NCBI GenBank assembly: GCA_001799565.1
Contig: MGTS01000037.1
Span: 1-64,000 of the forward strand
DNA length: 64,000 nucleotides
From: Elusimicrobia bacterium GWA2_51_34
GTDB lineage: Bacteria; Elusimicrobiota; Elusimicrobia; Elusimicrobiales; UBA9959
Direction of reading: 5' to 3'
Below, in pieces: positions 6,040 to 17,525 of this stretch. The position numbers and the translations under genes are program-made. The stretch's first letter is position 1. Each line of letters begins with the position of its first letter. The notes beneath the pieces are model-generated. The model made no database searches, was not told the DNA's origin, and was given only the letters and a program-made list of their open reading frames with translations.

Positions 6040-6186
6040 ATTGATAGCGATTGAAAGCAAAGGAAAGCAAAAGAAAGCAACAGAAAGCAAGAAATACAAA
6101 AGAGCCGCGATAACGCGGCTCTTTTGTATTTAAAGACATCTTACTTTCTGTTGCTTTCAATGGCCTTCAGCAGCATTCTGTTGCTA
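6040..6186. repeat. Intergenic 10-bp word hairpin enclosing a terminator
   Basis: The left arm (6040-6090) holds gaaagcaaag/gaaagcaaaa-type 10-bp units; the right arm (6140-6186) holds ttactttctg and ttgctttcaa-type units, the reverse complement. A strong terminator hairpin forms the centre. The element lies at a convergent gene junction. Confidence 0.8.
6092..6131. terminator. Bidirectional rho-independent terminator
   Basis: A perfect 18-bp stem (AAATACAAAAGAGCCGCG and its complement) closes on an ATAA loop. The A-rich and T-rich outer flanks let it act on both strands. It sits between the + strand valS group and the - strand secretion cluster, where a two-way terminator is expected. Confidence 0.9.
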
Positions 6187-6194
6187 ATGATTTT

Positions 6195-7124
6195 TTAGAA
6201 CTGCAGCCAGAAACCGAAGCGGTGGACATTACCCAAATCCCCGAACGGCAAATAGGCGTAATCCACGCCAAGGCCGGCCACTTTCACACCGAAACCAAGA
6301 CTGAGCCCCACAACCGCGCCCAAATTTGAGGTGTCATATCCGAATTTGTAACCGCCCCTGAGCGCGAAAGCGTTCCTGATCCAGTATTCGGCCCCGAAAG
6401 CGGGATAAAATTTCTCATCGTTCACATATTCACTCAGTTCGGCTGTTACATTTAAATTGGAAACGGCTTTATACAGGGCCCCGGCCGCTATCTTGAACGG
6501 CAGGGGGTCGGCCGCGTCCACGAATTTCATTTTAGTGCCCAGGTTCTGCATTGAAAGCGACACGTTGATTTTAGGGGAGGCGTGATAAATAGCGCCCGCG
6601 TCGGCCGCCACGGCTGAAGCGTTTTTTGAGTCTATGGAAGAATTTATAAATTTAACGGCGCAGCCGGCGTCAAGGCCCGGCAGGGAATCCGGCATAAATT
6701 CTTTTTTCGCGTAGGCAAGCGTAACCGCCAGATCGTTGGAGTCAAAAGAGCCGAGCGCGGACACCGCGCCCGCGTTGTCGTTAAGCCCGCGCCTTTCAAT
6801 GTCGCCCACATTTAGAAAGCTGGCTCCAAAGCCGAAACGGTTGCCCGATATGGTACCCGCGTAGGAGAGGTTTCCCATTTTTGCGCCCTGCAGATAGTTT
6901 GTAAAACCAAGGCCCACTTCCCGCTTGTCGGATTGCGCCAGCCCCGCCGGGTTTATGAACACGGCGCCGGAATCGTCGGCCAAAGCGCCAAAGGCTCCCG
7001 CCATGGCCAAAGCCCTGGGGCTCATGGACACCTTAAGGAAAGACGCCGCCGTAGTCCCGACACCCGACGCGTAAACCCCCGCGGGCATTGCCAACGCCAG
7101 GGAAAAAATAAGTAATTTTCTCAT
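6195..7124 (-). CDS. PorV-like outer-membrane protein (UPF0164/PorV-PorQ family)
   Basis: 309 residues with a signal peptide (MRKLLIFSLALAMPAGVYA) followed by the family hallmark: SPRALAMAGAFGALADD and INPAGLAQ. The rest is Gly/aromatic-rich strand-forming sequence ending in WLQF, as expected of a beta-barrel. PorV proteins act as shuttles of the type IX secretion system in Bacteroidota, carrying cargo with a C-terminal sorting domain to the cell surface. The gene lies directly downstream of a giant secreted protein with such a tail-like domain, which supports a cargo-shuttle pairing by context. No other T9SS part is in the window. AGAGGTAA precedes the ATG. Confidence 0.88.
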   Translation of the reverse strand: MRKLLIFSLALAMPAGVYASGVGTTAASFLKVSMSPRALAMAGAFGALADDSGAVFINPAGLAQSDKREVGLGFTNYLQGAKMGNLSYAGTISGNRFGFGASFLNVGDIERRGLNDNAGAVSALGSFDSNDLAVTLAYAKKEFMPDSLPGLDAGCAVKFINSSIDSKNASAVAADAGAIYHASPKINVSLSMQNLGTKMKFVDAADPLPFKIAAGALYKAVSNLNVTAELSEYVNDEKFYPAFGAEYWIRNAFALRGGYKFGYDTSNLGAVVGLSLGFGVKVAGLGVDYAYLPFGDLGNVHRFGFWLQF

Positions 7125-7153
7125 AAGTTACCTCTTTTATCAAATCTGCAGAC

Positions 7154-7180
7154 TGGACACTGACCACCGGCCACTGTCCA
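7154..7180. repeat. Imperfect palindrome between cargo and PorV-like gene
   Basis: TGGACA and TGTCCA flank a GC-rich centre made of ctgacc/ggccac words, directly downstream of the giant gene's stop codon. The words resemble the agtggcc hairpin at 43740-43868. It may be a small member of the word-hairpin family. Confidence 0.5.
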
Positions 7181-10100
7181 CTATTTTATTATCGCCATTT
7201 TATGCGCTTTATTAGCCAGTTTCTTTCCGTCCAGATAGGTCAGCATGAAGTAAACGCCGGACGCGCAGTTGGAACCATTATCATTTTTGCCGTCCCACTC
7301 GGAATAATAGACGCTGTTTTCAGGCCTGAGACCCTCATCTATAGTGCGCACCTTTTCGCCGGCCACATTGTAGATGACAAACTTAAGGTTGCCGGTCTTG
7401 CCCGCCGGCAGGTTATATTTTATCACCGTGCCCGCGGTGGGGTAAGGGTTGGCTATTCCGGAAGTTCCCACGTCTCCGCTCAGTACGACATTCTTTGACT
7501 TCAGGTTGAACGGGTTGGGCATGTTATAAACTTCAAACGAACTGCTGAACGCGGGCGTGTTTGTAGCCGGATTAGCAGTGAACACGGCGAACTGGCCCGT
7601 CTGCGAGCCTGAAGCTGCGGAAGGCACATAATAGCCCTTCGGCGATATCGCGCTCATCTTATGCGCTTTCCTTGAAAGAGGCGTCGCGCCGCCGGTAGCG
7701 CCTTCAAAGGCGCTTTCCAGGCTGTCCACGTCAACGGACACCGTACCCAGCATAGGGTCCACGCTGTAGGTGCCCGGCACCTCCTGCCACTGCCCGGTGG
7801 CCGTGTCGTACTGATAGAGCTTCAGGGCGTTGGTGTTTGTCACCTTTTCCTTGTCATATTTCAAGGTAAGAGCGAACGACTTGTTGGCCTGGGCGTTTGA
7901 AAGGTCTATATTGTATATTTCAGAAGCCATCAGCTCTTCAATCGCAGCCGCTATGGTTATGTCTCCCCGGTCCGTTTTGACCGTTCTGACATTCGGCAGG
8001 GTCCTGAAGAACCCGCCCACCAGGTCGTCCAGCTGAACCTGTTCCGTTGACGTCTGCGTAAGAGAACCGGGGTCAAGCTCAATACCGGAGTATTCCTCTT
8101 TTTCCTGGTCCATAAAAGCGCTGCCGCCGACAAGTGAAATATCCTGCACGTACTGTTCCGTCTTGGAATTGGAAACGCTGTCATAAATGAGCGTTTTTTC
8201 CATCTTGGTTATGTCGCCCACCGTAACATATACGGCGTAATACCTGTCGCTGATAGAAGTGGTGAACTGGCCCACGAACGAGTTGTTCGGGCCCGCCACA
8301 AGCATCAGGCTGGAGGCCGAGGACGGATCATAAACCGCTCCCGGGTTGAACGCGCAGGCCGGTATGCTGAGAAGTTCCTTCGGGCTGTTTATTATAACAT
8401 CCACTTTCCTTGGAGAGTCGGCATTCCTCCTGAGCTTGACCATTATCTGCGGAGGCAGGTCAAGCAGGACAATATCCCCCATGGGGTTCTGCCCGGAGGA
8501 AACAAGGGTCACTGTTGAAAAAGTCATTTTACCCGTTTCTATTACCGCCACCTTGTAATTGTGCCCCGGTATTACGCCTTTAAGTTCAAATAACCCGTTT
8601 TCATCCGTAAGGTCCTCAATAGTGGGAAGGTAACTCTGCGGATTTGTGATATTAAGGGTCTCGTCATAGGCCGACACTTTGATCCCTTCTTTTGTCGTTG
8701 GATTGGGGAATTTGGTAAGCAACACCTTACCGACTATGGTTGAGGTGGAAGGCTCAAGATAAAAAACCGGAAGAACCAAAGAATCGTCTTTGGCAAGGTG
8801 AACTTTCTTTCCGGTTTTAACGAAACCATCCATGGCTATTTCCAGTTTGTAAACGCCCGTAGGCAGGTTTTCCACAACAAAAGCGCCGGAAGAATCAGCA
8901 ATAAGGTATTTCTCCGTTATCCTGCCTTTTACATAAACGGAGGCGTTCCGCAAATACATTGAGGGCGTGGTTGAGCTCATTACAACTCCGCGCAATCCGC
9001 CTATGGAAATGCTCGCAAGGTCAAAATCAAAGTTATACAAGGATTCGTCAGGCAGGGTTATGTTCTTTGTAACCGGCGGATAATTGGGGTTGGCGAACAC
9101 GGCCGTGTATTTCCCGGGCGGCAGGCCCCACAAAGAATATCTCATATTCCCGTTACGTATAATATCCCTCATCATTTCTTTATCCTGCGATTGTATGCTG
9201 GATTCGAAGCCTATTATCCCCGTAGCGTCGGGCAAGACATGGCTGAAACCTTTCAGTTCACCGGCGGTGTCATAGACCATAAGCGCCGGTATCAGCGGCA
9301 TTATCTCGCTGTCAAAATTAGCGAACATCCTTGCGAAGTCGCTGTCCGTGAATATATTAGCGCCCTTTACCCAGCCGCTGATCTCGGTCTGCCCTACGGA
9401 ACCGAGTATGCTTACGGGTATCGGCTGGCCGACAGTTCCCAGATTAAGGTTTTCCGTGTCGGGCTTTACGGCCACATTCCTGGCTTTTCCCATAAAATTA
9501 GCGAACTGGCTGTAATTTTCCGCCACGCACTTGCTGTCGTCCGGAGTACAATAGCGAGAACCTATAAGCAGATAGAAGTCGTACTGCCCCTGCGGCATTA
9601 CCAGTTTGCTCCAGGTAGCGGGCACGGTAGCGGTGCTGTAATCAAAAGAGTATGCCGGATTATCAAAGAACAGCTCGGTTATATACTTCTGATTCATCTT
9701 CTGGCCGCTTGGCACGGCTATTATATGGTAGCTCCAGGCAGCCGTTGATATCACGGGCAGGCCGAAGATCTGCGGCTGGACAAAAAGCCCCGTCTCCAGT
9801 GAAACATTGACATTCGTGGTTTTGCCGGCATTAACTACTATGTTGTCCACCTCGGCTGGCGCATACGGATTTGAGGTGCTGACCGCTATCCTGATAGAAA
9901 GGCTATATTTACCGGGAGGGATATTAGCGAATTCAAAAGTCCCGGCCTCATTGATAGAACCTCCTTCGTTAAAAGAAACATTCTCACCGGACAGCTCTAT
10001 GCGTGGCCAGTTGTTGTCCCCGGGTTTATAAGTGCTTCCGTCCGGATATTTTAGAAGGCCCGTAACCCTTCCTGAAGGCGTCAGGTTCAAGTTCCTGATT

Positions 10101-13100
10101 ATTATGTTAGTGTCTTCAAAAGAAATCCGGTTATCAAATGAATTAAGCTTGGCCCAGGAATTAGACAGGACCGTAAGCCAGTAAGTCACATCATTGTCCG
10201 AAGACACGTACACCGTGTAAGAAGTCGTATTGCTTGTCAAGCTACCGTATATTGTTTTGAAGAACATCCTCCGGTTCTGGCAATCGTTGTCGCCGCATTC
10301 TTCAAAGGCGGCCACCGTAACAGCCGAAGACTTGGCTATAACCAGGGGATTTGAAGCGCTTACTGTATAGGTGGTGGTAAAAACCAAATTGCCGGTGATC
10401 ACGGCATTCGTGGTTATCCCAACCCCCACGTCAAAGACGTACGGCATTATGCCCTTACAGGTTCCCGAACTGTCAAGAACCCATTTTTTCCCGGCCGCGC
10501 AGGCATTATTGGGCGGATACGAAGGGGCGGCGGCGCCGGCGGAGGAGATAGTTATTCTCAGGTCGTCGGACGTGTTTTCAATGTTATCATCGCCGGAGTT
10601 TATGTTCCTGTAAACCGGGTTTTCAACCTGAAGCAATAGATTTCCGTCGGTAAGGCCCGGTACTGTAAACATGCCGTCTCCGTCGGTATAAGCAGTTACA
10701 TCACCTATGTTGGCGCGAAGCGACCTGTAATTATTGTTCCATTCAGAAGAAGTATACGTGGAACCGTAAGAGTCGTAACCAAAATATCCGTTCTCCTTGC
10801 CGTTAACCCTGACCTTTACATATGAAAGCGGGTTACCTAAATATTTTATCACACCGGTAAGGGTATAGGTGGCGGGCTGCAAATAATAATTCATATTCAG
10901 AGCCGGCAGCATTACATTGGAAGGCCCAATGCTTCCCCGCTGAGGAAAGTTTTCGTATCCCGCCCTGTTTATATACATATTGAGCGTATCTGTGGCTATT
11001 GAAAGCCCGCTGAAACTGAACCTTCCATTAGTGTCCGAAAGGCCTTCCTGCGAAAAATCGCAGGGGTTCTGGCTGCAGTCATTGTAAACTCTTATCTTCG
11101 CCCCGCTTATGGCATTACCCTGCATATCCCCCACAAAACCGCTGAAATAAACGGAGGCGGTGGAAGTGGTCTGGGTATAATTGGAGGAAGGAGGCATGGC
11201 GCTGGACATATTTACCGCAAATACCGAGCCGGAAGGCACCGCTGTCTGGGGTGACAGGCTTGTTGAAAGCCAGCCGGGGATATTCACGTCTATACCGTAA
11301 GTGCCCGCGGCCAGGTTGGGCACATTGTATATTTCAAGGGTGTCAGCTGTGTCCGTGGCCTTTAAAACCCCGTAAGAAACTCTCTCACGTGTCTGGGTCA
11401 GGTAAATTTCGCCCATTATAAAGGCGCCCCTGTAGATGTTGCTGATGTTAACCTTAACCGTGTTCTGAGGCGCGGCCATGGTTGTCAGTTTGTAGGGCAA
11501 AGACGCGCTTGCTAAAAATGTCTTATTAAAGCTGCCGAACGGGTCCATTACCTGGTCCTTGAAGGTGGGCGTGTAACCGGGCGTAGACAGGGCGACAATA
11601 TAAGAAACGCCCTTTATAACGTCAAACGAAGCGTTGCCTGAACTATTGGTTTTCCCGATATCCATAAAACTCAGGTCGGGCGAACCCTTTGCGTTAAATG
11701 GTATCAGCGCTATATTCACGTCCCCCAAAGGCGAACTGTCCGACTTTTTTGTAACCGCAAGGCTTAAAGAAACTTTATTGTCGGCAAATGGTATTTTCAG
11801 CGCCCTTACCCTCCTCACACTGTTCATATAACTCCAGCTGTCTGTATAGCCGAACAGATATGCCTGGCCGGCGGAATTTAAAGCCGCTGCCGCTCCCGCA
11901 TTACTTTCATTATAATCGCCACCGTATGTAAAGGAGGACTGAAACACAAGGCTGCTATTGAATTTCAAAGCCAACATCTTATTGGTGGTATTATAGAAGG
12001 AATTCTGCACATTTGACGTTCCGGTTACATAAACATTGCCCGTATTAGTGTCAATAGCTATGGAAGCGGCTGTTTCCATATTCCCCGCGTCATACATGGC
12101 CGTATTCAAGAGGGCGAGGTTATTGCTGGATTTCCAGATAAGGAAGTTATTATTCTGGCCGTTATTGGCGGTGGCAAGCACAAAAACATTGCCGTTCGCG
12201 TCAATAGCCACGGAATTAGCCGTATCGTTGCTCATATTGCCCGGCGAGCTGAAGGTAGCCGAGGATATAGTTGTAAAATCCGATTTCAATTTGGCAAGGA
12301 ACATTTTATTCCTGCCGTTTTCATTGTAATAGCCGGTAACAAAGATATAATCCGCACTATCAACCGCAACATCACCGGGATAATCCGGCAAACTGGAAGG
12401 CGCATATGAGCCATAAAGGTACGTCGCGGTTTGGCTCAGACTTGTATTAAACTTCACTATGCCGATATCACTGTTAATGCCGCCTATGGCGTATATATTA
12501 TCGTACGAATCCATGGCCATTGAACCGGATTGTATGTATGCGCCAACATCATAAGGCCCGGAGGCGCTGAAAGTTAAATCTTTATTATATTTCCTCAGGT
12601 TCAGAATGGTGTCCTTTGAATCCAGCGTATAGATAAAGCCGGAAGGGGAGATAAGCATGTCCGACACGTTATGCCCATACTCGTCCATATCGTTGTATAT
12701 AGCTGTGGATATGCCTACAGAACCGGCGCCTGTGCTGAATTTTGTTATGAAGGCCTTTCCGTTGGAATTAGCCAGACCATAAACATAATCACCTTTTCCG
12801 CCCTCGGTATATACCGCCATGGCTTTTGGCTCCATCCAGCCGCCGTTAGAATATGTCACGCCGCCGGCCAGATTGACATTGCCTATAAACCCCTCTCCTA
12901 CCTGCGGGCCATATCTCCTGTCAGTTGTCGGATACCCATCGGCGGGCAAGGAGTCGCCCCCCGGGTCGTCCATAGCTACAAATTGGTACGAATAATGACC
13001 ACCGGCCATACCGGTTGAAACATAAACGCAAGACACGCCCATTCTGTAATCCGCCCCCTCACAGGTCATTACAAAAGGACTGTCGGCTATTTCTACTTCA

Positions 13101-14440
13101 TCTCTGTATATACGGACCTTTACGTATTGGGGGGCATCTCCATCGGGGTCCTGGTACCTGACCTTGTACGTGAAAGTGTCGGCCACAACCCCGTCTTCCG
13201 GGTTTAGGCCGTCATTCCAGTAATTAGTGGTGCTCAGCCATACCAGCCTTGGCGCCCTGTTCAACGTGGAACCCGCGTCAAATCTCACGGTCGCCACATC
13301 AGCGTTCGTGCTGTAGCCGTTATACCTGTCGGACTGCCCCGTAACATAAACATGGCTGGAGTTATCCACTGCCACGCTTACAGGATAATCATTCTCCCCG
13401 CCGTCCATAAAAAATGAATTCTTGAAACTCAGATCGTCCGTATCAAGGATAAATGCCCCGTAATCCAGGTTGCCGTTATTGCTTATGAAAGCGGCTGCCG
13501 CCAGGTTGGTGTGCATATCCACCGCCAATCCACTCAGCATGCCATACCCCGGGTTTATGAATGTGGCTGTGAAAGGAGAGTTAAGGAGGTTATCATATTT
13601 CAGGGTATCCAGCGCCCAGCTATCGCACATATAGGTCACCGGATCGCATACCTGCCTGCTGTTCGCCAGAAACACAGCCTGTGTCACAGGTTCCACGGAC
13701 ATGAAATAATTTCCGCCGGTATTTGAAGTTGAAACAACAACGGAACTAGACACGACAATAGGGCCGGTAGTAAATTTCTTCAATGTTTTAATACCATCAA
13801 CCGCTGCCAATACATACACATTGGAAGCAAAATCCAAGCTGAGCTTTTCACAATTACTATAGGAGCCCTCAGTGTCATAATATGTCGTGCCCGCCGTTAA
13901 ATCAGCGCTTAGCGGCAGTATTGAAAATTTGTCGGTAGAGAAACAAGCGAATAAACCTGAATTACTGGCGACTATGTCACCGGGGGAAAGGTAGTTGGCA
14001 GGGTCGGAAAAAGAAGCGGAGGACGTAAAAACAAGGTCATTGCTATACCTGGAAATTAACATTTCATTCCTGCCGGTATCATTGTTCCACCATGAACCCA
14101 GGGCATAAACATTTTCGGTTGACGGCATTATTGCCAGTTTCAGGTAGTTTACTCCGTTCGTAGACGCCAAAGTAACCGAGGACGTAATTACACCGGCTGA
14201 ACTATACCTCAATATATAGTAATTCGGGTAGGTGTTAGCCAGAACATAAACAAAAGGCCCCCCGGCCGTTACGCTATCTACTTTTATATCGGAAGCGGAA
14301 TCCCAATCAGTTGTGCCGAAAACGGCGCCGCTTGAAACGGAGAAATCTCCGCTGATGAACCCGCCCGCGCTTTGTGCCCGGCACAGGGAGGCGGGCAGAA
14401 TTAAAACCAAGGCCAAAATAATTTTTTTAATGTTGAACAT
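7181..14440 (-). CDS. Giant secreted multidomain surface protein (2419 aa)
   Basis: Signal peptide at residues 1-22. Two propeller-like regions rich in repeated VYVTG/VYVLA-type strands lie at about 25-390 and 520-890, separated by an Ig-like stretch (WNDGLNPEDGV, about 400-510). Then follow at least six carboxypeptidase-regulatory-like beta-sandwich domains (patterns such as SDTNGRFSFSGL, TDGDGMFTVPGL, ADSSGAFVVENLP) between about 890 and 2000. From about residue 2300 the tail (NMPNPFN, YNVAGEKVRTI, WDGKNDNGSNCASGVYF) is a FlgD-Ig/T9SS-like C-terminal domain. It is probably exported to the surface with help of the PorV-like protein encoded next. AGGAGAAT precedes the ATG. No enzyme active site recognised; an adhesin or structural role is inference. 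Confidence 0.9.
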   Translation of the reverse strand: MFNIKKIILALVLILPASLCRAQSAGGFISGDFSVSSGAVFGTTDWDSASDIKVDSVTAGGPFVYVLANTYPNYYILRYSSAGVITSSVTLASTNGVNYLKLAIMPSTENVYALGSWWNNDTGRNEMLISRYSNDLVFTSSASFSDPANYLSPGDIVASNSGLFACFSTDKFSILPLSADLTAGTTYYDTEGSYSNCEKLSLDFASNVYVLAAVDGIKTLKKFTTGPIVVSSSVVVSTSNTGGNYFMSVEPVTQAVFLANSRQVCDPVTYMCDSWALDTLKYDNLLNSPFTATFINPGYGMLSGLAVDMHTNLAAAAFISNNGNLDYGAFILDTDDLSFKNSFFMDGGENDYPVSVAVDNSSHVYVTGQSDRYNGYSTNADVATVRFDAGSTLNRAPRLVWLSTTNYWNDGLNPEDGVVADTFTYKVRYQDPDGDAPQYVKVRIYRDEVEIADSPFVMTCEGADYRMGVSCVYVSTGMAGGHYSYQFVAMDDPGGDSLPADGYPTTDRRYGPQVGEGFIGNVNLAGGVTYSNGGWMEPKAMAVYTEGGKGDYVYGLANSNGKAFITKFSTGAGSVGISTAIYNDMDEYGHNVSDMLISPSGFIYTLDSKDTILNLRKYNKDLTFSASGPYDVGAYIQSGSMAMDSYDNIYAIGGINSDIGIVKFNTSLSQTATYLYGSYAPSSLPDYPGDVAVDSADYIFVTGYYNENGRNKMFLAKLKSDFTTISSATFSSPGNMSNDTANSVAIDANGNVFVLATANNGQNNNFLIWKSSNNLALLNTAMYDAGNMETAASIAIDTNTGNVYVTGTSNVQNSFYNTTNKMLALKFNSSLVFQSSFTYGGDYNESNAGAAAALNSAGQAYLFGYTDSWSYMNSVRRVRALKIPFADNKVSLSLAVTKKSDSSPLGDVNIALIPFNAKGSPDLSFMDIGKTNSSGNASFDVIKGVSYIVALSTPGYTPTFKDQVMDPFGSFNKTFLASASLPYKLTTMAAPQNTVKVNISNIYRGAFIMGEIYLTQTRERVSYGVLKATDTADTLEIYNVPNLAAGTYGIDVNIPGWLSTSLSPQTAVPSGSVFAVNMSSAMPPSSNYTQTTSTASVYFSGFVGDMQGNAISGAKIRVYNDCSQNPCDFSQEGLSDTNGRFSFSGLSIATDTLNMYINRAGYENFPQRGSIGPSNVMLPALNMNYYLQPATYTLTGVIKYLGNPLSYVKVRVNGKENGYFGYDSYGSTYTSSEWNNNYRSLRANIGDVTAYTDGDGMFTVPGLTDGNLLLQVENPVYRNINSGDDNIENTSDDLRITISSAGAAAPSYPPNNACAAGKKWVLDSSGTCKGIMPYVFDVGVGITTNAVITGNLVFTTTYTVSASNPLVIAKSSAVTVAAFEECGDNDCQNRRMFFKTIYGSLTSNTTSYTVYVSSDNDVTYWLTVLSNSWAKLNSFDNRISFEDTNIIIRNLNLTPSGRVTGLLKYPDGSTYKPGDNNWPRIELSGENVSFNEGGSINEAGTFEFANIPPGKYSLSIRIAVSTSNPYAPAEVDNIVVNAGKTTNVNVSLETGLFVQPQIFGLPVISTAAWSYHIIAVPSGQKMNQKYITELFFDNPAYSFDYSTATVPATWSKLVMPQGQYDFYLLIGSRYCTPDDSKCVAENYSQFANFMGKARNVAVKPDTENLNLGTVGQPIPVSILGSVGQTEISGWVKGANIFTDSDFARMFANFDSEIMPLIPALMVYDTAGELKGFSHVLPDATGIIGFESSIQSQDKEMMRDIIRNGNMRYSLWGLPPGKYTAVFANPNYPPVTKNITLPDESLYNFDFDLASISIGGLRGVVMSSTTPSMYLRNASVYVKGRITEKYLIADSSGAFVVENLPTGVYKLEIAMDGFVKTGKKVHLAKDDSLVLPVFYLEPSTSTIVGKVLLTKFPNPTTKEGIKVSAYDETLNITNPQSYLPTIEDLTDENGLFELKGVIPGHNYKVAVIETGKMTFSTVTLVSSGQNPMGDIVLLDLPPQIMVKLRRNADSPRKVDVIINSPKELLSIPACAFNPGAVYDPSSASSLMLVAGPNNSFVGQFTTSISDRYYAVYVTVGDITKMEKTLIYDSVSNSKTEQYVQDISLVGGSAFMDQEKEEYSGIELDPGSLTQTSTEQVQLDDLVGGFFRTLPNVRTVKTDRGDITIAAAIEELMASEIYNIDLSNAQANKSFALTLKYDKEKVTNTNALKLYQYDTATGQWQEVPGTYSVDPMLGTVSVDVDSLESAFEGATGGATPLSRKAHKMSAISPKGYYVPSAASGSQTGQFAVFTANPATNTPAFSSSFEVYNMPNPFNLKSKNVVLSGDVGTSGIANPYPTAGTVIKYNLPAGKTGNLKFVIYNVAGEKVRTIDEGLRPENSVYYSEWDGKNDNGSNCASGVYFMLTYLDGKKLANKAHKMAIIK

Positions 14441-14493
14441 AAATTCTCCTAAAATAACCCCGCTATAGCAGCCTTTTTACCTACGGCTTACGG

Positions 14494-14570
14494 CTTTCCG
14501 CCGAAGGCGGACCCGCCAGGCTGTTTGGCGGGAAAGCTTATGGCAGAACTGCGCCGTGCGGCGCAGTTCT
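14494..14570. terminator. Hairpin cluster after the barrel gene
   Basis: Small stems TCCGCC/GGCGGA (14494-14508) and CCCGCC/GGCGGG lie next to a perfect 12-bp stem, AGAACTGCGCCG with its complement, at 14545-14570, closed by TG. The last stem overlaps the stop codon of the barrel gene. No long T run follows, so it may stabilise or process the operon mRNA rather than end it. Confidence 0.55.
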
Positions 14571-15825
14571 AGAACTCCCACTCCACTCCCGCCAGATAAG
14601 TGTCGGCCTTGTAGTTATATCTGTAATTGGCCTCGTACCGCATATTAGAAGAGGAAAGCTGGTAATTGTAGGAGGCCCTGGCGAAAAATCTGTTGTATAC
14701 CGGGTAGCGGACAAAAAGGGAACTCAGCCATACGGTCTGATTTATCTTTGACTCTCCGTAAGCGCCGCTTTCATCCTGTTTCAGACGGCCGGAGTAATAA
14801 AGCCGCTTCCATTCAACGCCAAGGCCGAACTGCGCGCCGTTCTTTAAATTAAAGTTCATGGCCGGAGCGAGCCCCAGTTCAATGTAACTGTAATAATCCT
14901 TTATATACTGCGTCCTTGAGGAATCGTAGGAGTTCTGGTTTGAACTGAGCCAGGAAACGTTTGATTTAAGCGAAAGAAAGAGCGGCTTCATGGCTCGCGT
15001 CATCTTTAAACCCCAGGACTGCGCATACTCAGAGCGCTTATCGCTTTCAAACGAGCCGGCTGAGGAAACCAGGCTCTGGTCGCCGTATGTACGATAGGTA
15101 AAGTCGTAAGAAGCGCTCATTACCAGCGGCTCAGGAAACCAGGTGTAGGCGAACCCAAGGCGGTGGTTGGCGTTATCCATGGTATTGACGCCGGCGTTGA
15201 CTGAAAGCTCGTTGAAAGTGGTGGTATCTATTATGCTGACCGACTGGGAAAGCAAAGTGGCGTAATTGGGATATTTAACCTGGTAAAAGTCGTAGGACTC
15301 GCTGAAAGTGCCGTGCGGCCGTTCCTGTTCGGCCTCAAAGCCGAATGAGAGCGTGTTATAATCAAAAAGCCCGTCATTCCATTTCTCGTCTTTGGTTTCC
15401 CTGACCAGCGCCTTTGAGTAGGAAATTCTGGGTTTATATTTATTAAATTCGTCGGCGTAGATATATTTAAGCGAAATAGTGTGAGTCTGGCGCTGGCGGG
15501 TAAGCACTCCGCCGCCGGCAAGTTCCTGTATATCCTGCGTGCCGGAATAATTGCCCGAGTATACAGGAACAAGCTCGTGAGAGTCTGAAAATTTTATGAC
15601 CGGCGAGACAAAGGCGTCAAAGCGGCCCTGGAAAGTGGCGGCCTCGGAGTCAAGATAATACTTGCCGCCGAGTATTGACACATCCATTACAGGCGTCACC
15701 TTAATTTGGGCAAAAAGCGAGGGTAGAGGGGTTAGGGTAGAGGGTAGAGTAAAGAAGAGGAAAAGTCCGCCAATTTTCATTACCGAAATTTTTATATTTT
15801 TCATATTCTCAGATTTCCCACGCAT
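14569..15825 (-). CDS. Outer-membrane beta-barrel protein, unknown family
   Basis: 418 residues. A charged N-terminus and hydrophobic signal segment end at about residue 40 (SLFAQ). Alternating aromatic strands continue to a final YLAGVEWEF, the C-terminal aromatic expected of a BAM substrate. GGAGG lies six bases before the ATG, which fixes the start at 15825. It lies between a FecR-domain gene and the giant secreted protein gene, all on the same strand, so a role in building or anchoring that surface system is likely but unproven. Part of the signal peptide is written in a 7-bp word repeat (15719-15753). Confidence 0.8.
   Translation of the reverse strand: MRGKSENMKNIKISVMKIGGLFLFFTLPSTLTPLPSLFAQIKVTPVMDVSILGGKYYLDSEAATFQGRFDAFVSPVIKFSDSHELVPVYSGNYSGTQDIQELAGGGVLTRQRQTHTISLKYIYADEFNKYKPRISYSKALVRETKDEKWNDGLFDYNTLSFGFEAEQERPHGTFSESYDFYQVKYPNYATLLSQSVSIIDTTTFNELSVNAGVNTMDNANHRLGFAYTWFPEPLVMSASYDFTYRTYGDQSLVSSAGSFESDKRSEYAQSWGLKMTRAMKPLFLSLKSNVSWLSSNQNSYDSSRTQYIKDYYSYIELGLAPAMNFNLKNGAQFGLGVEWKRLYYSGRLKQDESGAYGESKINQTVWLSSLFVRYPVYNRFFARASYNYQLSSSNMRYEANYRYNYKADTYLAGVEWEF
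15719..15753 (-). repeat. Heptamer word repeat coding for a signal peptide
   Basis: Tandem 7-bp units agggtag, aggggtt, agggtag, agggtag and agtaaag lie within the barrel gene and are read on the other strand as the LPSTLTPLPSL part of its signal peptide. The same word forms intergenic hairpins at 21095, 41615 and 56210. Confidence 0.75.
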
Positions 15826-15875
15826 TATTCCTCCAAAAATTCAGACTATTGCAACTCTTGGCCGTTTGCTTTTTA

Positions 15876-15934
15876 CACTACCGGCTACCGATTACTGGTT
15901 ACTGAATACCCTCTCCCCTCTACCCTATACCCTG
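15876..15934. repeat. Degenerate word repeats between FecR and barrel genes
   Basis: Words ctaccgg/ctaccga/ttactgg are followed by cctctcc/cctctac/cctatac heptamers. The first half resembles the element at 954-1040 and the second the arm at 21172-21199. The inverted partner of the second half is the coding repeat at 15719-15753, 120 bases away, so this may be one split hairpin spanning the gene start. Confidence 0.5.
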
Positions 15935-15936
15935 CC

Positions 15937-17373
15937 TTAGAACCTCAGCAGGCCGGCGTCTTTCAGCATCTTGGCCGAGTACATCACGTCTATAGTTCGC
16001 CCGCCGAAAAGAGAGCTGGTATATACCCGCTCAAAGTTAAGGCGGTCGGTTATCTGGTCCAGGGTTTCCCCCCCGCCAAGGCCCGCGCCGAAATCGCCGG
16101 CGGAAAGTATTTTCCCGTCGTCAAAAAGCACAAAATCCTCCGCCTGTATCCAGGTGCCTTCGTTAAAAGTGTTTTTTGAAACACTATGATAAACGTCGCC
16201 GCTGGCTGAAGAAACCAGCCCGGAACCGCCCAGGTAGGTAATGGGATTATCGGCCACTCCGGTGGCCATATTGGAGTTGGTGGCTGTCCATATCAATTTG
16301 CCCAGACCGCCATTGTCATCGGCTTCGGAAGGCCCCGCGGCATAAAATGAATAGTTACCGAAAACCAACTGGTACGCGGGATTGGAGGAAAGACCGTTAT
16401 ATACCATTCTGCCGCCGGAGGCGTCCTCGGTCACTTTATCCAGGGTGTTGGACATAACGCTGTTCATGTCTGTCAGTTGCCACTGCGGAGCGGTGGAGCC
16501 GGGCGAAGAGATCATGTTGGCGGTCGCCAGCGACAGATCCCCGGGCAGGGCCGTATTGAAGGTGAAAAGTATCTTGCCGAAGTCAAAGCGGTTGTCGCGG
16601 GTGTTAAGCACCACATACTTGAACTGGTTGGCCGAGGGCCTGGTGGTGTATTCCTCCATCCTCACGCGGTTGCCGAAAGCGTCTATAGCCGTTTTGCGGT
16701 TCTGGTATTCGGCCGACTGTATTTCAGCCTGGGCGGAGGCCAGCACAGCCTCTTTTGAGATCTCACTGTATATCTCGCGCCGGGCGAGCGCCTTTGAGTC
16801 GCCGGAGGCTGATTCCATGCTGGCAGGCGGGTTCGGATTATTCCGGGGTTCTTGCATCCGGCCGCGCATGGGGACGCTGGCGAACTGCCCTTCGCGCACC
16901 ATGGCCGTGGCGCCAGAGCGGTCGCCCGTGAGCACACTGCCTTCCTGCACTTCAACCGTGGTATTTCCATCACCGTCCGCCGAAACGGTAAAATCCGTGC
17001 CGCGCACGGCGCAGACGGCTGACGGCGTTCTTACCTCAAATTTTTTGGAAAATTTCTTTACCCAGGAACGCACCCTGCCGAAATAAAGCCCCAAGGATAC
17101 GGTCTCTTTATTTTCAGTGGTCACTTTGAAAGCGGACATAGGCGCCACTTTTACCCTTGAACCGTCGTCCATGTAAATTTCAAGAGTGGAGGCCCGCGCC
17201 GTGCGCAATTCATCGCCGGAGGCAAGCGCCGTTTTATCTTCGCCCGATACGCGCTCCCAGCCGGCCGCGCCGGCCTTTTTTAAATCCACCTCTCCGCGCC
17301 AGGAAGAGATGTAAGCGGCCTGAACAAAACCTGAAAAAACAAAAGTCATAGCCAAAGATAATAAATATCTCAT
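15937..17373 (-). CDS. FecR-domain periplasmic protein
   Basis: 478 residues from the ATG at 17373. This start is preferred over an in-frame TTG at 17391 because AAGGAG precedes it. The signal peptide ends near GFVQA. A FecR-like domain lies at about residues 25-150 (ALASGDELRTA, LGLYFGRVRSWVK, VRTPSAVCAVRGTDF), followed by a Gln/Asn-containing region and a C-terminal domain I do not recognise. FecR domains in Bacteroidota relay signals to sigma factors, but free-standing secreted FecR proteins are common in other diderms; no sigma or anti-sigma gene is adjacent. First gene after the promoter at 17497-17525. Confidence 0.85.
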   Translation of the reverse strand: MRYLLSLAMTFVFSGFVQAAYISSWRGEVDLKKAGAAGWERVSGEDKTALASGDELRTARASTLEIYMDDGSRVKVAPMSAFKVTTENKETVSLGLYFGRVRSWVKKFSKKFEVRTPSAVCAVRGTDFTVSADGDGNTTVEVQEGSVLTGDRSGATAMVREGQFASVPMRGRMQEPRNNPNPPASMESASGDSKALARREIYSEISKEAVLASAQAEIQSAEYQNRKTAIDAFGNRVRMEEYTTRPSANQFKYVVLNTRDNRFDFGKILFTFNTALPGDLSLATANMISSPGSTAPQWQLTDMNSVMSNTLDKVTEDASGGRMVYNGLSSNPAYQLVFGNYSFYAAGPSEADDNGGLGKLIWTATNSNMATGVADNPITYLGGSGLVSSASGDVYHSVSKNTFNEGTWIQAEDFVLFDDGKILSAGDFGAGLGGGETLDQITDRLNFERVYTSSLFGGRTIDVMYSAKMLKDAGLLRF

Positions 17374-17496
17374 TTTTAAACTCCTTCTCAATAAACGCGG
17401 TAGTAAGAAAACAAAGCGACACAGAATGGAAGGTGAAATTTTATATCGTATTCCCGGAAACGGAATGTGTTCCGAAACAGGTTACGCATGGGTAAT

Positions 17497-17525
17497 ATTA
17501 TATACGCTCTGCCTGGAACTGTCAA
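17497..17525 (-). promoter_or_regulatory. Consensus sigma70-type promoter of the FecR/secretion cluster
   Basis: On the minus strand TTGACA (17525-17520) and TATAAT (17502-17497) are separated by exactly 17 bases, a perfect match to the housekeeping consensus. Transcription would start near 17490, giving a leader of about 115 bases before the FecR gene. A CGGAA/TTCCG inverted motif lies in the leader near 17461-17474. It could drive the whole cluster down to 6195. Confidence 0.85.

Follow-up and report, generated by a model that had tools for sequence, protein, structure and literature searches.

The locus and its promoter

The window analysed here is a 64-kb stretch of the genome of Elusimicrobia bacterium GWA2_51_34 (contig C37; genome of 2.63 Mb, 97.8% complete). 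Within it, four collinear genes encode a FecR-domain protein, an outer-membrane beta-barrel, a giant protein whose C-terminal tail resembles those of type IX secretion system (T9SS) cargo, and an outer-membrane protein of the PorV/PorQ family. All features of this gene run lie on the minus strand. It opens with a sigma-70 type promoter (TTGACA-17-TATAAT, 17497..17525) that matches the consensus at 12 of 12 positions and is followed by a leader of ~120 bases. The FecR-domain protein (478 amino acids (aa), 15937..17373) starts at an ATG behind AAGGAG, and the barrel, 16-stranded in its AF2 model (14569..15825), at an ATG behind GGAGG from which it counts 418 aa. The giant (2419 aa, 7181..14440), which we propose to be an exported cargo, is followed by the PorV/PorQ-family protein (309 aa, 6195..7124), its proposed cognate shuttle or anchor, and a terminator-like hairpin of 18 pairs with a T-rich tail (6092..6131) closes the run. 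Sec-type signal peptides are present on all four products (read by eye only). The four genes probably form one operon.

The 64 kb contain no second perfect TTGACA-17-TATAAT site, and none arose in 40 Markov-1 simulations of the window. We scanned 300 bases before the frame plus its first 180 bases at 10 FecR orthologues, a part of those retrieved (a set from which the candidate FecR region of genome G024 was left out), and all 10 carried a promoter-like site scoring at least 10/12, with three perfect sites and two scoring 11. Only ~10.6% of 2000 random 480-base pieces from the same loci score as high, so that the occurrence of promoters at FecR orthologue starts exceeds chance. The original prediction had placed a consensus promoter ahead of four collinear envelope genes, and both the 12/12 site and the four minus-strand frames bear this out, in an order that recurs in relatives.

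Conservation of the four-gene unit

The counts for barrel loci rest on 80 loci kept from 138 relatives, nearly all supplied by metagenome-assembled genomes (MAGs) of Elusimicrobia or Elusimicrobiota; 17 loci with less than 1.8 kb upstream and 11 with less than 1.5 kb downstream were dropped from the respective counts. Where the flank was long enough, a FecR gene adjoined the barrel upstream in 57 of 63 loci (a looser flank rule gave 67/73; the former is the figure used), and the next frame after the barrel was at least 500 aa long in 67 of 69. This large frame ended within the locus in 40 cases, 28 of which had the tail, and a PorV gene followed the tailed frame in all 26 loci with room for one. 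Overall, the gene order FecR-barrel-giant-PorV is conserved in relatives.

Several loci (L037, L076, L078, L080 and others; in part also L036 and L044) carry a second, divergent four-gene set in the order giant tail-PorV-barrel-FecR directly before the first, and L053 has a third set that includes an additional adhesin-like gene, as does L052, there with further frames in between. Because four unrelated families were duplicated jointly, these sets are strong evidence for a joint function, and on such comparative grounds we consider that the four genes form a functional unit.

The unit also shows local variation. The extra gene of L053 (L053:6760-9129, 789 aa), in the interval between barrel and giant, gave 22.9 bits against the N terminus of the Bdellovibrio mosaic adhesive trimer (cut-off 60) and 23.8 bits against Lcl_C (cut-off 34.9). 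In three relatives the same interval holds short frames, judged by eye to resemble HEPN/MNT or four-helix-bundle proteins (L044:13015-14100, L047:13607-14023, and L052:6900-7617 and 8811-9230). At L044:3928-13090 (also L081:12290-21254) the coding sequence of the giant falls into two frames, of 2822 and 193 aa; in L044 this is due either to misassembly or to a genuine interruption immediately ahead of the tail. A variant arrangement exists in the window's own genome (L192:980-9311), where a tailed 1284-aa frame, a 582-aa frame, a FecR-domain protein and a PorV-family gene occur together. Just two of the 80 loci name another phylum: L115 (8439-11221), a FecR-barrel pair from a MAG of Candidatus Sumerlaeota, and L112, which is titled Clostridia.

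The giant protein and its type A-like tail

The giant combines beta-propeller-type repeats, Ig-like CarboxypepD_reg domains in four stretches and SBBP with a type A-like sorting domain at its C terminus, where Pfam places FlgD_ig at residues 2347-2397 (E 1.2e-6). Its C-terminal domain (CTD), the last 100 aa ending in KMAIIK (7181..7483), scores above the cut-off for FlgD_ig (33.9 bits, cut-off 27) and below it for CHU_C (21.3, cut-off 27) and the sorting-domain model TIGR04183 (18.7 bits, cut-off 23, E 0.0013), and reaches 24.9 bits with the tail region of the PorU model.

The family to which this tail belongs is better seen across the genome. We compared 17 tails (last 100 aa each), picked because they adjoin a PorV gene or had an earlier tail-family match, and at E ≤ 0.01 the TIGR04183 model recovered 16 of them, the PorZ model 15 and the PorU model 11. 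A profile built from the genome's tails matched the tail regions in the structures of PorZ (5m11, E 1.2e-12) and PorU (6za2, 3.1e-11), as well as the translocon-trapped substrates 8glk (5.1e-5) and 8glj (0.0077), and found FlgD less strongly than the PorZ and PorU tails. Por_Secre_tail (PF18962) recognised four tails in the genome; the giant's tail was not among them, so that tail families alone under-count such proteins. Broadly speaking, these similarities would place the giant's tail with the type A sorting domains, as a type A-like member, in keeping with the FlgD/T9SS-like tail originally proposed for the 2419-residue protein.

PorV-family proteins and their pairing with cargo

The last product of the run belongs to the PorV family according to NCBIfam PorV_fam (NF033709, 168 bits, cut-off 90) and to a profile comparison with Flavobacterium johnsoniae PorV (6h3i_F, E 4.3e-25). 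Pfam PF19572 falls slightly short (26.2 bits, cut-off 27), and the protein stays below the equivalog thresholds of both PorV proper and PorQ proper. Family membership thus agrees with the PorV-like shuttle named in the original prediction, with shuttling itself a putative role.

Across the genome, PorV-family matches number 22 and fall in 19 frames, 14 of them over the cut-off, and a tail-bearing gene lies directly upstream on the same strand of 12 of the 19 frames. Among frames directly preceding a PorV gene, 12 of 18 carry a tail, compared with 2 among the 186 remaining frames of these stretches. The tail model behind this count (CTD2) was built partly from the same tails; hence we also used a model built solely from the giants found in the window and in related genomes, which marked 7 of 18 pre-PorV frames and none of the 186 others. 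In other genomes of the phylum, a tailed frame stands upstream in 18 of 29 cases (one top-scoring PorV locus each, from 30 returned minus the own-genome locus L164). Distances among tails and among PorV-family proteins are correlated across 13 pairs of the genome (Mantel r 0.37, p 0.006), and remain so after dropping C35b and a near-duplicate (r 0.32, p 0.03). To us the new point is this apparent one-to-one pairing of type A-like tailed cargo with PorV-family shuttles.

A translocon homologue encoded elsewhere

The original prediction would fall if the genome held no T9SS core gene, and one was found: a homologue of the translocon protein SprA/Sov (1811 aa) is encoded on another contig (C6), where TIGR04189 matches it in four stretches (131.8 bits, E 1.5e-38, short of the cut-off of 200). 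A four-sequence profile of SprA homologues also matched F. johnsoniae SprA (6h3i_A) in four collinear stretches (E 1.4e-20); phmmer with the single homologue found no match in the PDB. Of the T9SS homologues that had been proposed as a check, sov (sprA) is thus present, porU was not found with PF01364, and porL and porM were not detected, no control genome having matched for GldM either.

The SprA model has matches in 129 of 149 genomes of the phylum, and all 129 also have PorV-family matches. The 10 PorV-negative genomes are all among the 20 SprA-negative ones (Fisher 1.7e-10, not corrected for kinship); they all belong to genus g29 and are mostly small, so that kinship inflates the association. 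The barrel is present in 48 of the 149 genomes, all SprA-positive.

The FecR protein and the barrel

The FecR protein has a short signal-like N terminus and a FecR domain at residues 60-153 (PF04773, E 4.5e-18), which in the AF2 model extends to a fold spanning residues 51-204; the C-terminal half gave no good fold match (best Z 5.1). The FecR part resembles PupR (6ovk, Z 17.3, root-mean-square deviation (rmsd) 2.4, 138 aligned) and the putative anti-sigma fold of BDI_1681 (range of the two, Z 16.6-17.3). Neither the Pfam scan nor an alignment of 19 sequences matched an N-terminal cytoplasmic anti-sigma part, and by eye no sigma factor was recognised among the frames neighbouring the gene. FecR matches occurred in 22 of 41 genomes searched, every one of them in the window's own family (25 genomes), whereas the 16 genomes of the sister family gave no match.

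No Pfam or NCBIfam family matched the barrel protein. The AF2 model of its 412-aa form (predicted local distance difference test (pLDDT) 79.5) has 16 long strands starting at residue 41 and no TonB-type plug. Its fold is close to CdiB (6wil, Z 21.4, rmsd 3.2, 284 aligned) and almost equally close to ordinary porins (Z 18-20), and therefore does not reveal what the barrel does. A barrel profile searched against PDB sequences returned chance-level hits to actin-capping protein only (E 0.024 or worse), which we disregard.

Two barrel variants were seen in relatives. A branch without FecR directly precedes a frame that looks by eye like a histidine kinase (L127:9932-12816, L134:9920-12901, L144:9364-12124 and L145:9980-12817), and the barrels of the third sets carry more than 300 extra N-terminal residues with a beta-solenoid look (L051:6315-8552, L052:4512-6827 and L053:4395-6713). 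For the latter, a Slam-like TPR part was considered and dropped, the extra region being beta-solenoid-like by eye and without a Pfam family (L053 scanned).

A putative type IX-like route with cargo-specific shuttles

Overall, we judge export by a T9SS-like route in which the PorV shuttles are cargo-specific to be the best reading of these data, and a reasonably probable one. From the gene run with its conservation and paralogous sets, the SprA homologue, PorV-family membership, tail homology and gene pairing, all read from sequence, we infer a single transcript, export, shuttle specificity, anchoring and every role given below to FecR and the barrel. After Sec export, the giant would be held in the periplasm until its Ig-like, type A-like tail is recognised at the SprA/Sov homologue. 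The PorV-family protein from the next gene would then dock on the translocon, take over the tail and depart with the cargo. With PorU missing and a PorV protein made beside the cargo, this protein most likely remains bound as a surface anchor, by analogy with PorP/SprF for type B cargo. FecR and the 16-strand barrel, which adjoin each other in nearly all loci, probably act as a pair across periplasm and outer membrane by which the export complex is held, gated or sensed; a role as periplasm-to-outer-membrane anchor or gate is probable, if weakly supported. Rather than a secretion system complete in itself, the cluster is better seen as a cargo, a shuttle dedicated to it and a pair of accessory proteins that rely on a translocon shared with others. 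The "dedicated surface secretion unit" first proposed is thus supported as a surface-protein unit, with its translocon encoded elsewhere.

It is tempting to go further and to speculate on an ancient, phylum-wide type IX-like route, sortase-free and perhaps without GldLM. Each type A-tailed cargo would travel with a PorV paralogue of its own and remain on it, and FecR and barrel would form a new attachment module replacing PorU-PorZ-PorQ. We hold this extension to be possible and somewhat doubtful.

Several observations weigh against a T9SS-like route with cargo-specific shuttles. On the side of the machinery, none of the 149 phylum genomes reached the curated cut-off of the SprA model, and SprA_N (PF14349) found nothing in the window's own genome, in a search where no control matched either, so that the full-length SprA model was needed. 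The PorU C25 peptidase (PF01364) is absent from the genome and matched one of 149 in the phylum; GldM (PorM, TIGR03517) matched none of 149, nor any control genome, and GldL (PorL, TIGR03513) was detected once in 149, at 24.7 bits and under the cut-off. On the side of the cargo, the giant's tail, below the TIGR04183 cut-off (18.7 vs. 23) and FlgD-like too, sits at the weak end of the tails of its genome. Pairing is also incomplete: six of the 19 PorV-family frames have no adjoining tailed gene and one has it directly downstream, while four tailed genes have no PorV-family match beside them. Finally, pairing and co-duplication could yield the correlation of tail and PorV distances without any specificity. 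(The sole C25, PorU/gingipain-type match, in genome G045, consists of two domain parts on two contigs, L071 and L072.)

One alternative is an ordinary T9SS that has been overlooked in this phylum, with interchangeable PorV paralogues, neighbourhoods that merely reflect co-expression, and motor and attachment proteins too diverged for the models. SprA, PorV and the type A tails are indeed all homologous to T9SS parts, and the search for GldM lacked a positive control. However, the C25 search evidently works, since PF01364 matched in one genome, and it found nothing in the other 148 of 149; moreover, 19 PorV-family frames in one genome are far from a single all-purpose shuttle, which leaves an ordinary system rather unlikely. 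The missing PorU leads us to file the route as a variant and not as a canonical T9SS, and the type IX-like route outside Bacteroidota put forward at the outset is upheld in large part, by the SprA homologue, the type A-like tail and the PorV-family protein.

Two further explanations start from FecR and the barrel, and we regard both as very improbable. One would make this pair a two-partner-like exporter of the giant, independent of SprA, with the PorV protein as a fatty-acid-type porin. CdiB is the barrel's best structural match and in most loci the next frame after the barrel is a large one, but porins nearly tie with CdiB, the 418-aa barrel protein seems too short for POTRA domains, the giant bears a type A-like C-terminal tail, and the FadL model (PF03349) gave the PorV protein just 20.5 bits (cut-off 29.7). 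The other, a surface signalling or uptake cluster in which FecR regulates an outer-membrane receptor barrel and the giant is a binding protein, draws on the fit of the FecR domain to the PupR and BDI_1681 folds. The missing match to an anti-sigma domain, the lack of a recognisable neighbouring sigma factor, the plugless barrel and the conserved linkage to a tail-bearing giant and PorV all speak against it.

Relation to known systems and significance

Reviews and primary papers place the T9SS in Bacteroidota and allied Fibrobacteres-Chlorobi-Bacteroidetes (FCB) phyla and describe its genes as absent elsewhere (PMC11285876, PMC11205867). In the portions available of the open-access literature searched, we found no report tying T9SS or PorV to Elusimicrobiota: the T9SS is named in reference lists only in two papers (PMC7031533, PMC8542988) and two others make no such link (PMC12204202, PMC11495043). 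Like the Bacteroidota system, Elusimicrobiota have a SprA homologue, a PorV-family protein and type A-like tails, whereas no PorU sortase was found here, GldL and GldM were not detected, and the one PorV of Bacteroidota contrasts with 19 PorV-family frames, most of them beside a cargo gene.

In Bacteroidota, type A tails are all served by one PorV, and it is type B cargo that has cognate, gene-adjacent shuttles (PMC12618676). As in the type B CTD/PorP-SprF pairs of F. johnsoniae, the shuttle gene lies directly 3' of the cargo gene in per-cargo pairs (PMC12618676, PMC9143113), but here the shuttle is of the PorV/PorQ family and the tail type A-like. Elusimicrobiota would thus appear to pair genes in the type B style while using type A-like tails and shuttles of the PorV family. 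Several F. johnsoniae type B cargo/SprF operons also carry PorE, a protein proposed to fasten the complex to the cell wall (PMC12618676, PMC9143113); extra envelope genes beside cargo pairs are PorE there and FecR plus barrel here, and by analogy the latter two may act like PorE.

Two other systems share single features with the cluster. FecR/PupR surface signalling likewise sets a FecR fold beside an outer-membrane barrel, yet the protein here is secreted-looking, no anti-sigma part was matched, the barrel has neither plug nor signalling domain, and no sigma factor was recognised. CdiB/FhaC two-partner transporters also place a 16-stranded barrel next to a giant surface-type protein, although here there seems to be no room for POTRA, and unrelated barrel types reach almost the same scores.

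With homologues of the translocon in 129 of the 149 genomes, the range of the T9SS would extend to Elusimicrobiota, a mostly uncultured phylum, and many of the large surface proteins of this phylum could be given names. The natural absence of PorU would let core translocation be studied apart from sorting, and cargo-specific PorV pairs, if true, would show that cognate shuttling is not confined to type B tails.
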